64,000 bases of DNA, taken from NCBI GenBank assembly GCA_026225415.1, contig JAMFSS010000002.1, forward strand, positions 213,915 to 277,914, read 5' to 3'. The notes beneath the pieces were generated by a model that was given only the letters and a program-made list of their open reading frames with translations, ran no database searches and was not told the DNA's origin. The DNA comes from Alphaproteobacteria bacterium. Its GTDB lineage: Bacteria > Pseudomonadota > Alphaproteobacteria > UBA9219. The first letter of the stretch is position 1, and every line of letters begins with the position of its first letter. Positions 26,617 to 61,186 of the stretch are shown one piece after another. The position numbers and the translations under genes were made by a program.

Positions 26617-27927
26617 ATGCCCGTCGTCCTGCAAAGCGAAATGGCCGAATTGTTGGCGCAGCATCAACGCTATATCCGTGGCATTCAGGGCGGCAAGCGG
26701 CTCGATTTAACGATGCGCACCGGCCATGAAATCGATTTCTCGAAAAAGAATTTGCGCTCGGCAGAATTTGTCGGCGCGTTTCTTAATCACGCGAATTTCT
26801 CTTATTGCAAATTGCAACAAACGAATTTTTTCGGCTCGACCCTCAATAACAGTTCGTTTCTGGAAGCCGACCTGAGCCAGGCCGATATGCGCGGCGCGCA
26901 GATGCAAAGCGTAAATTTCACTAATGCCACACTTGATGACGCCAATATGTCCGATGGGCTTTTGCTGCAACATAAGAGCGGCGGCGAAATCATGCCCGTC
27001 CATATCGGCGAGGACAAATTCCGCCTCAGCCAAGCCGTGTTCCGCAATGCCACCGCGCAACGCGCCAAATTTTCCAGCGCGATTGAACTTTCAACCAATC
27101 TCAGCCTCGCAAATTTCAAAGGCGCAAAACTGGTCGGCGTGAATTTCGCCGGAAGTAATCTTCAAGGTGTAACATTTGAAAGCGCCGATTTACGCGGCTG
27201 CAATTTCACCAACGCCAATATGAACTCGGCCATTTTGCTGCACGCTAATCTGGATGGCGCGACCTTTGACGGCGCGGATTTAACCGCCAGCCTTGTGCAT
27301 GTCGAAGAATTTAAGGCCGAGACATTCACCAAAGCCAAGATGTCACGCACCTTGGAAAGCCTTGAATACAGCATCAAGGAAATCATCGCCAATCACCGCG
27401 TATGGGTCAACACCTTGGGACGCGACGGCGTTCGCGCCGATTTGGTCGGCATTAATTTATCGAATGTTATTCTGGATGGCGTTCAGATGCAGGCCGCGAG
27501 TTTGCAGAAATCGCTTCTGACCGGCGCATCGTTCCGCAGCGCGATTTTCACAATGTCGGACATGTCGTGCTGTAACGCGGCGGATTCCAATTTCAGCAAG
27601 GCCGATTGCCGCGGCATCAATTTTTCCATGTCGCGCCTTGACCGCGCCGATCTGCAAAATACCGATTTTTCGCCGATGCAGATCACGGCGACGCTTAAAC
27701 CGACCTTCTGGCCCGCCAATTTCACCGGCGCGCATTTGCAGGATGCGCGCTTGCGCGGCGCCGATTTACGCGGTGCGCATTTCGACCGCGCGATGTTGGC
27801 CGGTGCCGATCTGCGCGACACCGATTTGGAAGGCGCTGTGTTTCTGGATGCTAACCTAACCGGTGCTGACTTGCGCGGCGCGAAGCTTGAGAAAGCTGAT
27901 CTGCGCGGTGCAGTTGGCGTTAAATAA
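26617..27927 (+). CDS. pentapeptide-repeat protein, two beta-helix blocks with cap motifs
   Basis: Many A(D/N)Lxx repeats; caps ELLAQHQRYIRGIQGGKRLDL and EIIANHRVWVNTLGRDGVRADL. Confidence 0.92.
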   Translation: MPVVLQSEMAELLAQHQRYIRGIQGGKRLDLTMRTGHEIDFSKKNLRSAEFVGAFLNHANFSYCKLQQTNFFGSTLNNSSFLEADLSQADMRGAQMQSVNFTNATLDDANMSDGLLLQHKSGGEIMPVHIGEDKFRLSQAVFRNATAQRAKFSSAIELSTNLSLANFKGAKLVGVNFAGSNLQGVTFESADLRGCNFTNANMNSAILLHANLDGATFDGADLTASLVHVEEFKAETFTKAKMSRTLESLEYSIKEIIANHRVWVNTLGRDGVRADLVGINLSNVILDGVQMQAASLQKSLLTGASFRSAIFTMSDMSCCNAADSNFSKADCRGINFSMSRLDRADLQNTDFSPMQITATLKPTFWPANFTGAHLQDARLRGADLRGAHFDRAMLAGADLRDTDLEGAVFLDANLTGADLRGAKLEKADLRGAVGVK

Positions 27928-38003: not shown

Positions 38004-39269
38004 ATGCAGGATACACCTGAAGACATACAGCCCCCGCGCCTGACACAGGCGCAGCTTGACGTTATCATCAAAAAGCATGAGAAATTCGTTTCAGGCCGCA
38101 TGGGCGGCGTGCGCGCCAATTTATCCAACCATGACCTCAGCGGGCTTTCGTTTGCAAAAAAAAACATGTCGGATGCCAATTTTACCGGCGCAACCCTGAC
38201 CGATGTGAATTTTGGCGAAACCAAACTTGACCGCGCCACTCTGTTTTGCGCCGATTTGCGTAATGCCAATTTACACGGCGCCAGTTTGATAAGCGCGGAT
38301 TTTCGCGGTGCGTCCCTGCGCGGCGCCAATCTGGTCAGCGCCAATATGACCGGCATCGATTTGCGCGAAGGGTCATTAGCCAATGCCAGCGTATCGGGTG
38401 AATTGAAAGAAGCGCATGAAAACTTGACCATCGCCGATAAAGGCGGCGCGAATTTAAGTGGTGCCAATCTAAGCAACGCGAAAATGTCGGGCGCCGTCGC
38501 CACCGCCAGCAATTTCAGCGACGCGACGATGAAAAGCGTCAAGATGCAAAAATCGGTTATGCGGGGCGCCAATTTCAAAGACGCCAATCTGGAAAACGCC
38601 GATTTCAGTGATTGCGATATGGTCGATGTCAATCTGCGCGGCGCGTTGCTTGTCGGCACAGCCATTAATCTCAGCGAAGTTTCGGCGGAAAACAAAGCGG
38701 GCATCCTGACGGAAATGTCTGCGGGGTTGACAGTCAAAGAACTACCCTACCCGATCGATGTCCTTTTAACGATGCATAAGAACTGGGTGGCCAGCAACGG
38801 CGCGCAAGATTCCCAAATGGATATCAGCGGCTATGATTTACGCGGCAGCAAAAATTTTACCCGCGCCATTCTGACAATGATGCGGGCCATTGGCGCCACG
38901 CTTTATGGTGTCGATTTTTCGTATTCCCATCTTCAAATGTTGGATTTTCATGAATCCGATTTGCGTTACGCGCTTTTCAATTTTTGCGATATGCGCAGTG
39001 CAAATTTCGTCAATGCCCGTTTAAACAATGCGAGTTTTGAGAAAGCGAAATTGCAACCCCTCGCTTTGCCACAAAACCGCCTTATGGCCACGAATTTTTC
39101 GGGCGCCATCTTGCGTTATGTCAATTTTTCGGGCGCCAATTTGCAGAAAGCCAATTTCCGAAACGCGGATTTGTCCGACGCCAATTTTACGGATGCCGAT
39201 CTGACAGGCGTCGATTTTCAGGGTGCCATTCTTGAAGGCGCGCGCCTGCCCCCCGGCTATCCAAAATAA
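38004..39269 (+). CDS. pentapeptide-repeat protein, paralogous architecture to 26617-27927
   Basis: Caps QLDVIIKKHEKFVSGRMGGVRANL and IDVLLTMHKNWVASNGAQDSQMDI, each followed by ADLxx repeats. Confidence 0.92.
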   Translation: MQDTPEDIQPPRLTQAQLDVIIKKHEKFVSGRMGGVRANLSNHDLSGLSFAKKNMSDANFTGATLTDVNFGETKLDRATLFCADLRNANLHGASLISADFRGASLRGANLVSANMTGIDLREGSLANASVSGELKEAHENLTIADKGGANLSGANLSNAKMSGAVATASNFSDATMKSVKMQKSVMRGANFKDANLENADFSDCDMVDVNLRGALLVGTAINLSEVSAENKAGILTEMSAGLTVKELPYPIDVLLTMHKNWVASNGAQDSQMDISGYDLRGSKNFTRAILTMMRAIGATLYGVDFSYSHLQMLDFHESDLRYALFNFCDMRSANFVNARLNNASFEKAKLQPLALPQNRLMATNFSGAILRYVNFSGANLQKANFRNADLSDANFTDADLTGVDFQGAILEGARLPPGYPK

Positions 39270-43225: not shown

Positions 43226-44154
43226 CAAAACTTGCTTTAACAATCGGCGACCCCACCGGCATCGGCGCGGAAATCACCGCCAAAGCTTTAGCGCGTATCG
43301 GCGCATTTCCCGATACAACATTCGCCGTGATTGGCGCACTGGACGGCTTGATGAAAACAGCCGCTGACTTGAAGATCACCCTGCCCCAAGCCAATGTGAC
43401 ATATCACGATATCCTGGCCGATAAACCGGGTGCGGTCGCGTATCAGGCATTAGTGCATGCCGCCACAATGTTGGCGGCGGGCGAGGCCGATGCGTTGGTC
43501 ACAGGCCCCATTTCCAAGAAAAATCTGGCAGATGCAGGCCACGCCTATCCCGGCCATACGGAAATATTGGAAAATCTGGCGCAACGTTTTTTCAACGTGC
43601 CGGATGCCCGCGCCGAAATGCTGTTCATCTATAAAAAATTCCGCCTGCTACTTCTCACGCGCCATATTGCGCTCGCCGATATTCCGGCGGCGCTTGCCAA
43701 ACCCAGCGCAGTTTCCCGCCCGCTTAAGACCCTTATCCGCTTTTTCCGCGACCACGCCAAAATTGATGAACCACGCATCGCCATCCTCGCCCCCAATCCG
43801 CATGGCGGCGAAGTGGGCGGCGAAGAAGAAAAGAAATATATCATGCCGGTTATCCATGCCGTGAATGGCGTGGGCGCGTCACGGCTTGAGGGATGTTTTG
43901 CGGCGGACGCGTTTTTCCGCGACTTCGATGCCAGCACCACCCCCTATGATGCGGTTGTCGCCACCTATCACGACCAGGGGCTTATCCCTTTTAAATTACT
44001 GGCGGGGTATGAGGCCGTAAACGTCACTATCGGTCTTCCCTTTATCCGCACCTCCGTCAGCCACGGCACCGCGGAAGACATTGTTGGCAAAGGTATTGCG
44101 CGGGAGGATAGTTTGGTGGCGGCGATACAAGCAGCTACGGAATTAGTGAAGTAA
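43222..44154 (+). CDS. pdxA: 4-hydroxythreonine-4-phosphate dehydrogenase
   Basis: LALTIGDPTGIGAEITAKAL; HAYPGHTEILE; ATYHDQGLIPFKLL; RTSVSHGTAEDIVGKG. Confidence 0.97.
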   Translation: MTKLALTIGDPTGIGAEITAKALARIGAFPDTTFAVIGALDGLMKTAADLKITLPQANVTYHDILADKPGAVAYQALVHAATMLAAGEADALVTGPISKKNLADAGHAYPGHTEILENLAQRFFNVPDARAEMLFIYKKFRLLLLTRHIALADIPAALAKPSAVSRPLKTLIRFFRDHAKIDEPRIAILAPNPHGGEVGGEEEKKYIMPVIHAVNGVGASRLEGCFAADAFFRDFDASTTPYDAVVATYHDQGLIPFKLLAGYEAVNVTIGLPFIRTSVSHGTAEDIVGKGIAREDSLVAAIQAATELVK

Positions 44155-44162
44155 CTTTCAAC

Positions 44163-44214
44163 AAGAACTGCACGAATTCCCCTCCCCTTGCGGGAGGGGT
44201 TAGGGGCGGGGTCA
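44163..44214. repeat. left inverted repeat flanking DUF559 gene
   Basis: ctgcacgaattcccctccccttgcgggaggggttaggggcggggtca (44168-44214) is a perfect 47-nt reverse complement of 44618-44664; extends to 52 nt with one mismatch. Confidence 0.95.
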
Positions 44215-44604
44215 CAGGTTACCAGCTAGAATTTCATTTGCACGATTAAGAATGGCAGAAACAACATTCCCCCTATTCTGCACAACATCAGAATTCACAA
44301 ACCTCATAACTGTATAGCCCATACCTAATAAATGTTTGTCTCGCTCTTTGTCTTTTTCAAGCCGTAGATCATGCGAAACACCATCAACTTCAACCACCAA
44401 CCTAAGCTTCAAGCATACAAAATCTGCAATGTAGGGATGAAGAGGATATTGACGACGAAACTTTATGGGCAAGCCTTTTGTAGCAACACGAAGCTCATAC
44501 CACAAAATATCTTCACCATTTGTTGGTTCACGACGCATCTGTTTGGCGCGGCGATAATCTGCTGGTTTGTTTTTATGCGTGGCAAAATTTGATGGATCGA
44601 TCAT
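44212..44604 (-). CDS. DUF559 (Vsr/endonuclease-like) protein
   Basis: LWYELRVATKGLPIKFRRQYPLHPYIADFVCLKLRLVVEVDGVSHDLR..GYTVMRFVNSDVVQN. Confidence 0.92.
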   Translation of the reverse strand: MIDPSNFATHKNKPADYRRAKQMRREPTNGEDILWYELRVATKGLPIKFRRQYPLHPYIADFVCLKLRLVVEVDGVSHDLRLEKDKERDKHLLGMGYTVMRFVNSDVVQNRGNVVSAILNRANEILAGNL

Positions 44605-44617
44605 TTTTCTGACCTAT

Positions 44618-44669
44618 TGACCCCGCCCCTAACCCCTCCCGCAAGGGGAGGGGAATTCGTGCAGCTCTT
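44618..44669. repeat. right inverted repeat flanking DUF559 gene
   Basis: tgaccccgcccctaacccctcccgcaaggggaggggaattcgtgcag; internal hairpin cccctccc-gcaag-gggagggg. Confidence 0.95.
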
Positions 44670-44684
44670 ACCGCACGATACTTC

Positions 44685-57333: not shown

Positions 57334-57459
57334 GGAAGAAGAGGATAAGGAGAAAAAAGAACGAGCAAAAACGAGGGTCGACCTCACCGATAACACTCAT
57401 CTTTGCTCACCCTTTTCCCTAACCCCTTCTGCAACAACAGGATACAAGGACAAAACACT

Positions 57460-58821
57460 ATGCGTCTTCTTATCGTCGGACAACTTGAAGGCCCCCTTGG
57501 CACCGCAGGGCGCATAGCGACCCAACGCGGCGCCAAAGTCGCCCATATCGACAGCGTGCAAGGCGCGTTAAACGCCTTGCGGAATGGCCAGGGCGCCGAT
57601 CTGGTCATGTGCGATGTTGTGCTGGATATTGCGCAACTGATCGACAGTTTGAAATCCGAACGCATTACGGTTCCGGTTATCGCCTGCGGCGTGACCAATG
57701 ACGCATCCGCCGCCGTTCGCGCCATTCGCGCGGGCGCCAAGGAATATGTGCCTTTGCCGCCCGATGCCGAATTGATTGCCGCCGTTTTGCAAGCGGTTGC
57801 CGAAGAAGATTCGACCTTTATCGCCAAAGACGCATCGATGCAGCCCTTGCTGCAAATGGTTGACCGCGTGGGCGGCAGCGATGCCTCGATCCTCATCACC
57901 GGCGAAAGCGGCACCGGCAAGGAAGTGATGGCGCGTTATATCCATCGCAAGAGCCGCCGCGCCGCAGGCAATTTCGTTTCCGTCAATTGCGCGGCCATTC
58001 CCGACAATTTGCTGGAGTCGGAATTGTTCGGCCATGAAAAAGGCGCGTTCACGGGTGCCGTCGCCCGCCGTATCGGTAAATTTGAAGAAGCCAATGGCGG
58101 CACCTTATTGCTGGATGAAATCAGCGAAATGGATATCCGTTTGCAGGCCAAATTATTGCGCGCGATTCAGGAACGCGAAATCGACCGCGTAGGCGGCACG
58201 CAACCGATTAAAATCGATATCCGCCTTATCGCGACATCCAACCGCGATCTGGAAGAAGAAGTGAAAGCCAAACGCTTCCGTGAAGATTTGTATTTCCGTT
58301 TGAATGTCGTCAATTTGCATTTACCGCCCTTGCGCCAACGCATTGCCGATATCGTGGCGCTGGCAACATACTTTGCCAATAAATATGCCAAAGCTAACGG
58401 TCTGCCGGAAAAAGTGATTTCGTCTGCATCCTCCGCCGCGTTGCAAGCCCATCATTGGCGCGGCAATGTGCGCGAATTGGAAAACACCATGCACCGCGCC
58501 ATTCTTCTGTCGCAAACGCCGCAGATTGAACCTGAATCCATCATGTTGTCGGGTCAGGGTTTTGCCCCCGCCGTGTCACCAGCCGAATTGGTTGTTAAGG
58601 CCGCATCAGGCATTAACAGCAATGGCGGTTTGGTTGGCCGCACCGTGGCCGATGTCGAACGCGATCTGATCATCGACACGCTCAGCCATTGTTTGGGCAA
58701 CCGCACGCATGCCGCCAATATTCTGGGTATTTCCATCCGCACCTTGCGCAACAAGCTCAAGCAATATGGTGATGAAGGCGTGCCTGTGCCGGGCGGAAAC
58801 GAAGAACGCGCTGTTTCTTAA
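57460..58821 (+). CDS. flbD: sigma54-dependent flagellar regulator FlbD
   Basis: AAA+ GESGTGKEV, ELFGHEKGAFTGA, GGTLLLDEISEM, C-terminal HTH; last gene of fliF operon as in Caulobacter. Confidence 0.95.
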   Translation: MRLLIVGQLEGPLGTAGRIATQRGAKVAHIDSVQGALNALRNGQGADLVMCDVVLDIAQLIDSLKSERITVPVIACGVTNDASAAVRAIRAGAKEYVPLPPDAELIAAVLQAVAEEDSTFIAKDASMQPLLQMVDRVGGSDASILITGESGTGKEVMARYIHRKSRRAAGNFVSVNCAAIPDNLLESELFGHEKGAFTGAVARRIGKFEEANGGTLLLDEISEMDIRLQAKLLRAIQEREIDRVGGTQPIKIDIRLIATSNRDLEEEVKAKRFREDLYFRLNVVNLHLPPLRQRIADIVALATYFANKYAKANGLPEKVISSASSAALQAHHWRGNVRELENTMHRAILLSQTPQIEPESIMLSGQGFAPAVSPAELVVKAASGINSNGGLVGRTVADVERDLIIDTLSHCLGNRTHAANILGISIRTLRNKLKQYGDEGVPVPGGNEERAVS

Positions 58822-58832
58822 ATCAGTTGGAT

Positions 58833-59102
58833 TTAGGGTCTAGGCCTATAAATAACGTGAGGTTCTGTTTGAATAGGAAAACGAAATGCAAGGCGACAAA
58901 CGATGCCGTACTTAATGTACGGCGAGTGCAGTCAACGCTGCAGTTCGCTTTCCTATTCAAACCCGTAGGGCGCGACGAAAATGCCGCCCGGACGTCACCA
59001 AAAAGCTTGTCCGTATCACGCGATACGCTCTGCGCTTTTTGGCTAGCCGGACAACATTTTCGACCGCGCAGAACCCACGTTATTTATAGGCCTAGACCCT
59101 AA
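58833..59102. repeat. ~270 bp nested palindromic element between flbD and flhA
   Basis: Outer arms 58833-58867 and 59069-59102 (34 bp, one bulge); internal arm 1 58868-58961 closed by tttgaataggaaa/tttcctattcaaa; internal arm 2 ~58963-59068. Confidence 0.9.
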
Positions 59103-61186
59103 TGACCGATCAATCCACAACAGCATCCGACCCGTTTAGCGGCTTCTTCAAACGTGGCGAAGTATGGTTTGGTATCGGCCTGTTGATGATTTTAACGGGC
59201 TTGATATTCCCGTTGCCGCCGTTTCTGGTTGATATCGGCCTGGCGATTTCCATCACCTTCGCGGTTCTGATTTTGATGACCGTGTTGTTCATCGGGAAAC
59301 CGTTGGAATTCAGCTCGTTCCCGACCGTCCTTCTTATCGCAACCCTTATCCGCCTTACGCTTAACCTTGGCACCTCGCGTCTTGTTTTGACCTACGGTAA
59401 CGAAGGCACCGCAGCGGCGGGGCATGTGGTTGAATCTTTCGCCTCTCTGGTCATGGGCGGCGATTTCATCATCGGCGTGATTGTTTTTGCCATTCTTACG
59501 CTTGTCAATTTCGTGGTCATCACCAAAGGTTCGGGCCGTATCGCCGAAGTCGCGGCGCGCTTTACGTTGGATGCGATGCCCGGCAAGCAAATGGCTATCG
59601 ACGCCGATCTGTCATCCGGCCTTATCAACGAAGATCAGGCGCGCAAACGCCGCAAAGAACTAGAAGACGAAAGCAGCTTTTTCGGTTCGATGGATGGTTC
59701 TGCCAAATTCGTGCGCGGTGATGCCGTTGCCGGTCTGGTCATCACTTTTGTTAATGCCATCGGTGGCATCGTCCTTGGCACCTTCCGTCACAACATGCCT
59801 ATTTTGCAGGCGGCGGACACCTATGTTCGTCTGACGGTCGGCGATGGTCTTGTCACGCAAATCCCTGCCCTGCTGGTTTCCGTCGCCGCCGGTTTGCTGG
59901 TCACAAAAACCAATGTGCAAGGCTCAACCGACAAAGCCCTGTTCAACCAGCTGGCGGGATATCCGATGGCGCTGGGCATGAGTTCCGGCATGTTGTGCGT
60001 GTTGGCGTTACTGCCCGGTATGCCCTTCATCCCCTTTGCGTTGCTCAGCGCTCTATCCGGTTTCACTTGCTATATGGTCATTCAACAAGCCAAAAACCGT
60101 GTCAGTGACCAACTCACCACGGACAATAAAAACAAACCGGCGACTGTTGCCGAAGAACCGATTGCTAAATCCTTGTCCATCGACATGATCCGTTTGGAAT
60201 TGGGCTATGCCTTGCTCAGCCTTATCAACAGCGAGGCAGGCCAACGTTTAACCGATCAGATTAAGGGTCTGCGTAAACAATTGGCGGGTGATATGGGTTT
60301 CATCATGCCTGCGGTGCGCATACAGGATAATTTGCAATTGCCTCCTAATTCTTATGTGTTGCGCGTCAAGGAAATTGAAGCCGGTCGTGGTGATTTGCGT
60401 CCCGGCATGTTGCTGGTTATGGACCCGCGCGGGCAAACCATCACTTTGCCCGGCGAAGCGACACAGGAACCAACCTTTGGTCTGGCCGCCACATGGATCG
60501 ACCCGACCTACCGTGAAGAAGCATTGTTCAAAGGTTACACCGTTGTCGACCCACCAACCGTCATCACCACCCATCTGACCGAACTGGTCAAAGATAATAT
60601 GTCGGAATTGCTGTCCTATTCCGAAACGCAAAAACTGCTGGATGAATTGGGTCGCGAGCAACAAAAACTGGTCGCCGATGTTATTCCGGGGCAAATCACC
60701 ATCAGCGGTTTGCAACGCGTTTTACAAAATTTGCTGGCAGAACGTATTTCGGTGCGTGATTTGCCAACCATATTGGAAGGCATTTCCGAAGCAACCGCCG
60801 TTACGCGTAACCTGACCAATATTTCGGAACATGTGCGCACGCGTCTGGCGCGGCAAATTTCAGATGCCAACACCAATGATGTGGGCTATATTCCGATGGT
60901 GACATTATCTCCGGAATGGGAACAGGCCTTCGCCGAATATGTTATTGGTGAAGGCGACAATCGCCAATTGGCGATGCCACCCAGCAAGTTGCAACAATTC
61001 ATCACATCCATCCGCCAAAGCTATGACCGCTTCGCCGCCATGGGTGAATCCCCTGTGCTGCTGACCAGTGGCCCCATTCGTGGTTATGTGCGTTCCGTGG
61101 TCGAACGGTTCCGGCCTTCGACAACGGTGTTATCGCAAAATGAAATTCATCCAAAAGCAAAAATTAAAACTTTGGGACAGATATGA
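59102..61186 (+). CDS. flhA: flagellar biosynthesis protein FlhA
   Basis: LIRLTLNLGTSRLVLTYG; DAMPGKQMAIDADLSSGLINEDQARKRRKELEDESSFFGSMDGSAKFVRGDAVAG. Confidence 0.98.
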   Translation: MTDQSTTASDPFSGFFKRGEVWFGIGLLMILTGLIFPLPPFLVDIGLAISITFAVLILMTVLFIGKPLEFSSFPTVLLIATLIRLTLNLGTSRLVLTYGNEGTAAAGHVVESFASLVMGGDFIIGVIVFAILTLVNFVVITKGSGRIAEVAARFTLDAMPGKQMAIDADLSSGLINEDQARKRRKELEDESSFFGSMDGSAKFVRGDAVAGLVITFVNAIGGIVLGTFRHNMPILQAADTYVRLTVGDGLVTQIPALLVSVAAGLLVTKTNVQGSTDKALFNQLAGYPMALGMSSGMLCVLALLPGMPFIPFALLSALSGFTCYMVIQQAKNRVSDQLTTDNKNKPATVAEEPIAKSLSIDMIRLELGYALLSLINSEAGQRLTDQIKGLRKQLAGDMGFIMPAVRIQDNLQLPPNSYVLRVKEIEAGRGDLRPGMLLVMDPRGQTITLPGEATQEPTFGLAATWIDPTYREEALFKGYTVVDPPTVITTHLTELVKDNMSELLSYSETQKLLDELGREQQKLVADVIPGQITISGLQRVLQNLLAERISVRDLPTILEGISEATAVTRNLTNISEHVRTRLARQISDANTNDVGYIPMVTLSPEWEQAFAEYVIGEGDNRQLAMPPSKLQQFITSIRQSYDRFAAMGESPVLLTSGPIRGYVRSVVERFRPSTTVLSQNEIHPKAKIKTLGQI

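Follow-up and report, generated by a model that had tools for sequence, protein, structure and literature searches.

A probable IS5-type MITE-like palindrome, with pairing kept at the DNA level, directly before flhA in an alphaproteobacterium

Introduction

In the usual view, MITEs derive from a single insertion sequence, are homogeneous and do not last long. Those of the IS5 family (IS427-like) are short and non-coding, with terminal inverted repeats, a TA duplication and YTAR or CTAG targets. Bacterial MITEs, like the stable folds of their transcripts, are familiar from earlier work (PMC10969869, PMC2229807). The Correia or NEMIS elements of Neisseria, 107 or 155 bp long, are MITEs with TA ends whose transcripts form a long stem-loop beside genes (PMC2229807); the NEMIS transcript is reported to be cut by RNase III (cited in PMC2229807). 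The CIR repeats of Caulobacter and Brucella, found between genes in these Alphaproteobacteria, have two hairpin arms (PMC2229807). They are about 110 bp long, with linker-joined arms, no 5ʹ-3ʹ closing stem and an exposed GANTC motif. REP and BIME sequences of the GTAG and CGTC families are inverted hairpin pairs in intergenic DNA, and the CGTC families are common in Alphaproteobacteria (PMC3733652). Individual REP units are 20–40 bp long, with short stems and without TA-flanked terminal repeats.

Here we describe a 270-bp palindrome between flbD and flhA on contig JAMFSS010000002.1 of an alphaproteobacterial genome (GenBank assembly GCA_026225415.1); the whole stretch of 64,000 nucleotides that was analysed is referred to below as the window. 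The palindrome has 34-bp ends and no gene of its own. It shares with IS5-family MITEs the features listed above, and its terminal repeat is held in common with an IS5-family element of a relative. Unlike those MITEs, it has a two-armed core that is conserved across Alphaproteobacteria and some other proteobacterial classes, and its terminal repeats and stem sequences turn over beneath that constant core. It resembles Correia elements in its ends and its long stem, but is much larger and has two inner arms. Identity with CIR repeats was rejected on length and on the 34-bp closing stem. In contrast to REP units, it is a fixed unit of ~270 bp. We found no description of this element family in Rfam or in the open-licence PMC literature, where an earlier account may have been missed.

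Results

A two-armed palindrome between flbD and flhA

Both neighbouring genes are on the + strand: flbD at 57403..58821 and flhA at 59102..61186. Matches above cut-off to NF050807 and TIGR01398, respectively, bear out the names that a preliminary description had given them. The element (58833..59102, no strand assigned) begins 11 nt after the flbD stop codon (TAA, 58819-58821) and directly abuts the flhA start codon. This IS5-type MITE-like palindrome, copy 1 of the genome, scores 268 bits against the covariance model of its family (model positions 1-272), and is in the canonical orientation on the + strand, so that arm A comes first. The left half of its closing stem, or terminal inverted repeat (58833..58867, + strand), pairs with the right half (59069..59102, + strand) over 34 bp with one bulged A, at 58860. 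The outermost pair is U58833-A59102, and its A is that of the flhA ATG. Sequence and fold agree with the preliminary description on this stem and on its final base, and the fold also bears out the two inner arms.

Arm A (58868..58961, + strand; arm 1 of the preliminary description) consists of a variable proximal stem, a conserved internal loop, and middle and apical stems. The family consensus of the loop is nAGGA / TGACG, for which the window copy has AAGGC (58890-58894) and TCAACG (58932-58937). Arm B (58971..59068, + strand; previously arm 2) is a reverse-complement design of arm A, with loop consensus CGTCA / TCCT, CGTCA at 58993-58997, and an apical hairpin CCGTA...TACG. Between the arms lies a CCC-GTA-GGG mini-hairpin (58962..58970, + strand) that is conserved across the element family. 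The mini-hairpin, the TA target duplication and the second genomic copy described below were absent from the preliminary description. RNA folding, which had been proposed there, upheld the structure: the single strand has a minimum free energy of -149.8 kcal/mol, compared with -78.3 ± 5.4 kcal/mol for 200 dinucleotide shuffles (z -13.3). One + strand frame is open across the whole element (58827-59102, a 91-aa ORF ending at 59102), with no gene-like sign.

Alignments of the FlhA proteins of relatives begin at residue 1, at a start of the ATGACC type. Judging from these alignments, the ATG at 59102 is the genuine, ancestral start, and not a downstream codon of the kind that the preliminary description had proposed to look for. 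In family genomes, no flbD-flhA junction that is readable contains the element, so among readable relatives the site is occupied in one genome only. The gap between the flbD stop codon and the flhA ATG is short in relatives (3 nt in L240, 13 nt in L223 and 28 nt in L224), and the reconstructed empty site here has a 14-nt gap with the sequence GGATT-TA-ATG. A scan of 58600-59250, covering sigma-70-like sites only, found no sigma-70-like promoter; an outward promoter of this type, which would make a leaderless flhA mRNA, was rejected on this result.

Copies in this genome and across Proteobacteria

A DNA search of the genome for the 270-bp unit, as the preliminary description had suggested, found a second, full-length copy that is 83% identical and ends one base before the start codon of coxB, a gene with a COX2 domain. 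Many copies, at 68–75% identity, are present in other families of the order. We built a covariance model from ten full copies. It matched 11 of 33 genomes of the order and 27 of 385 genomes of the class, the latter in 24 genera, and a phylum-wide sample contained the element in 18 of 399 genomes, seven of them outside the class; copy numbers from the class- and phylum-level searches, which scored few candidates per genome, are lower bounds. Scanning GTDB genomes for a short motif of arm B gave matches in Thalassospira, Rhizobium, Aurantimonas, Roseitalea, Paramagnetospirillum, Kiloniellaceae, a Rickettsiales MAG and others. At the 24 arm-B-motif loci that were checked, the covariance model matched all but one (L304, from a Planctomycetota MAG), and most matches were full-length. 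Distant copies that were folded directly display the two arms and the mini-hairpin; some distant model matches (L261, L268) fold differently, and caution is warranted for these.

Copies in genome G026 are 95–97% identical to one another and those in G325 are 91–94% identical, values that indicate recent amplification and spread. Single-arm variants of 166–180 nt with the same kind of ends occur in G030, G016 and G004 (L086, L097, L098, L099 and L100). A tiny derivative in G017 (L219, about 591-631) combines terminal-repeat sequence with a ~40-nt hairpin, TAGGGTCTGCACTCATAATTAACGTGGGTTCTGGCCCTA, and lacks the arms. Genome G029, which belongs to another family of the order, has an isolated sequence like the terminal repeat immediately before coxB (L212, about 2119-2138; G029:C1:904617-904637); this is either an old shared insertion or a chance resemblance.

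The window copy has no match in Rfam up to E 1. For the loci of ten relatives, Rfam matches up to E 0.1 were limited to tRNAs, a plastid model on a tRNA and a sub-threshold microRNA model, the last on the single-arm copy L098 at 35 bits against a cut-off of 100. Membership of an Rfam family was rejected, there being no match to a curated covariance model above cut-off. Known plasmids gave no match for the window copy and one partial match, from Thalassospira, for another copy.

Ends, target sites and the link to IS5

Copies end in (C/T)TAG...CTA(A/G) and are flanked by a TA duplication. In the window copy, the two TA sequences are at 58834..58835 and 59100..59101 (neither assigned to a strand), and the empty site reconstructs to TTAA. 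A clear TA at both ends is missing in 31 of 94 copies. When flanks were rejoined at the TA repeats, the target was CTAG at 30 of 63 sites and YTAR at 53 of 63; IS427-like elements prefer YTAR/CTAG targets. Insertion had occurred inside a stop codon at 17 of the 63 sites, compared with 58 of 846 background YTAR sites. Such an insertion rebuilds TAG because the duplicated TA precedes the G of the element, and copies often supply the stop codon of their neighbour. We used only these stop-codon and target-sequence results, and discarded an “inside CDS” class of sites: ORF starts had been extended too far, to the point that even the flhA site was called CDS.

In the same-genus genome G005, the sequence TAGGGTTTGGACTCATAAAT (longer form TTTATGAGTCCAAACCCTA) lies directly after the C-terminus of a transposase that belongs to the IS5 family by NF033580 (E 2e-10). 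The terminal repeat of the copies in G026 is TAGGGTCTGGACTCATAAAT. Comparison of the two gives one mismatch in 20 core bases and two in 21, with 18/20 as the conservative figure. The family has terminal inverted repeats, is non-coding, duplicates TA, occupies dispersed, unrelated sites, and has ends that match this insertion sequence, as expected for IS5-type MITEs. No DDE_Tnp_1 (PF01609) gene was found in the window's genome, and an autonomous partner there was rejected for that reason. In class-level hosts (e.g. G733), resident IS5 elements have terminal repeats unlike the ends of the local copies. Hence, the IS5 link is firm in one order-level case, and beyond that we infer it from this example together with the target-site pattern. 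Readings as a retron or an integron attC-like site were set aside on the symmetric ends and the TA duplication.

Pairing is kept at the DNA level

Between the copies before flhA and coxB, 12 pairs are compensated and 5 are broken in one copy, with no single-sided change to a G-U pair. Across 90 copies, standard Watson-Crick pairs make up 92.9% of cells in the 100 model pairs, compared with 56% after shuffling; the alignment was fitted to the covariance model and favours pairing, and the folds are also seen independently of the model. Nearly all four Watson-Crick types occur per model pair. Thus, the stems turn over almost completely in sequence yet stay 93% paired.

Real RNA selection tolerates G-U pairs and does not tolerate A-C. 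The stems of the element do covary, a property that the preliminary description had put forward for checking, but the RNA-type signature of G-U over A-C is absent, with 153 G-U cells versus 144 A-C cells. Where copies lie between co-directional genes, the mRNA strand has 73 G-U and 85 A-C cells (p 0.38). A control with 30 RNase P RNAs of Alphaproteobacteria gave a G-U:A-C ratio of 286:20, and the element gave 182:146 by the same procedure (MAFFT plus RNAalifold in each case; Fisher p 6e-30). Since G-U equals A-C, on the mRNA strand too and unlike in RNase P, pairing is kept on the DNA, strand-symmetrically, and not by selection on an RNA.

At class level, loop columns are more conserved than stem columns (0.81 versus 0.55 bit, p 3e-5). 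The conserved unpaired loops are AGGA, TGACG and their complements in arm B. Among within-genome copies that are <6% diverged, 38 pairs are broken versus 7 compensated, whereas copies that are 20–30% diverged have 919 compensated versus 590 broken pairs; these counts are pairwise and not independent. Such a trend would be expected from decay of settled copies alongside retention of the fold in the propagating lineage. Because loops are conserved more than stems, young copies are broken and old ones compensated, we infer from these statistics that it is as DNA that the fold serves the element, in its propagation or survival, and not host genes. The window copy has just two or three imperfect pairs out of 100, and so its insertion is probably fairly young.

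Position relative to neighbouring genes

The orientation of copies relative to genes is variable: stop-start in 30 copies, start-stop in 22, start-start in 22 and stop-stop in 17. Close to an element end, from -4 to +8 nt, 24 of the 94 copies have the start codon of an ORF that encodes 80 aa or more (25 such codons in all). Named by eye from sequence, the abutting genes presumably include nuoG, plsX, fabH, hisI and carA. Genes such as these are for the most part essential or important; evidently, then, neighbours are not silenced by the element.

Discussion

The feature before flhA is, with high probability, a non-autonomous IS5-type MITE-like element that was mobilised in trans into a TTAA site, with a DNA-structured core that serves propagation or survival, any effect on flhA being incidental. 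In such a scheme, an IS5-family transposase, not found in the genome now, would have acted in trans on the terminal repeats, and the element would have inserted just before the flhA start codon, duplicating TA. The two inverted hairpin arms, with their conserved internal loops and the mini-hairpin on the closing stem, may act as extruded or single-stranded DNA, and selection on the mobile lineage would maintain their pairing while settled copies decay. RNase III cutting and partial uncoupling of flhA from flbD would then be side effects of the insertion rather than its function. It is probably a passenger that inserted before flhA rather than a regulator of that gene. The MITE-like palindromic insertion that formed one reading in the preliminary description is borne out by what was observed directly: a dispersed family, TA duplication, YTAR/CTAG targets, a terminal repeat in common with an IS5-family element, and occupancy of the site in a single genome among readable relatives. 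That description had named a downstream flhA start together with many unconserved, dispersed copies as grounds against its inference. The many dispersed copies are there; the start is at 59102, and across the family the structure of the copies is conserved.

Why would the fold be kept in DNA? A tentative proposal, which we regard as possible rather than likely, is that the core is a hairpin device: folded single-stranded or cruciform DNA whose loop motifs (AGGA/TGACG) would be recognised by a host factor conserved across Proteobacteria. IS5-type non-autonomous elements would need this device to transpose or persist, and the core would outlive changes of terminal repeat and transposase. The predicted reader of the loops is more likely a host factor than a transposase, because the loops are constant from host to host, unlike the terminal repeats. 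An alternative, which we regard as possible but unlikely, is that the element is the same MITE and that its pairing is maintained solely by template switching (quasipalindrome correction) in replication, the fold itself having no function. Template switching can create and repair stems and yield apparent compensatory changes that mimic covariation (PMC8794818), and the equality of G-U and A-C, like the strand symmetry, fits a DNA-level process. However, correction should erase non-pairing internal loops, and these are the most conserved columns at class level. Recently split copies, moreover, carry mostly uncorrected single changes, contrary to fast correction in place. We argue that template switching is not the whole story of how pairing is maintained.

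What, then, of the fold at the flhA start codon? The other reading in the preliminary description was a three-way-junction RNA that acts in cis in the flbD-flhA transcript and gates flhA translation, with the fold kept for that RNA function. The very stable fold touches the flhA ATG, start codons lie close to the ends of a quarter or so of the copies, including those of nuoG-, plsX- and fabH-like genes, and the two genomic copies differ by compensated pairs. Nonetheless, the junction is empty in readable relatives, copies adjoin unrelated neighbours in any orientation, G-U equals A-C on the mRNA strand as it does not in RNase P, recent sister copies mostly have broken pairs, and there is no Rfam match. 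A cis-regulatory RNA of flhA, which we consider very improbable, was rejected on site occupancy, orientation, G-U/A-C symmetry and the decay of recent copies. A hairpin can bridge a Shine-Dalgarno site and a start codon, as in phage T4 gene 38, and the inserted hairpin might by analogy be tolerated because its fold brings the old upstream Shine-Dalgarno site next to the start codon. The geometry of the fold and the frequent abutment of start codons agree with this idea. However, mean anti-Shine-Dalgarno pairing is -3.4 kcal/mol for reconstructed empty sites, compared with -3.9 kcal/mol for intact sites and -3.5 kcal/mol for other genes (Wilcoxon p 0.77). Reconstructed empty sites thus pair no more strongly than the others, and bridging was rejected as scarcely credible. 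Cutting of the element's transcript by RNase III is plausible, given the long perfect duplex inside the likely flbD-flhA transcript and the NEMIS precedent in Neisseria (PMC2229807). That such cutting would, as a side effect, produce a separate, nearly leaderless flhA mRNA is conceivable by analogy with NEMIS, though on balance unlikely.

We propose that the element represents an IS5-type MITE family with a broadly distributed core that is structured at the DNA level, a kind of MITE that we did not find described in open-licence PMC papers or Rfam. It departs from the usual view of MITEs in its fixed two-armed plan, the near-complete turnover of its stems, its changing terminal repeats and its DNA-level pairing. 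These properties make it possible to test directly whether DNA hairpins play a role for an element that a transposase drives. Comparing G-U with A-C is a cheap test of whether covariation in a palindrome reflects real selection on RNA or only resembles it, and the striking fold at the flhA start codon needs no regulatory story.

The window contains other repeats. At 44148-44684, 67-nt inverted repeats that are 90% complementary enclose a 130-aa ORF on the minus strand (44212-44604), whose product we take by eye to resemble a DUF559-type endonuclease-like protein. This unit has a 71% identical partner stretch at G000:C6:3745-4230, and its repeat units occur without the gene at several other places in the genome. 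Periodic repeats of a 15-nt type at 26907-27842 and 38261-39217 (repeat family D1) resemble pentapeptide-repeat coding sequence.
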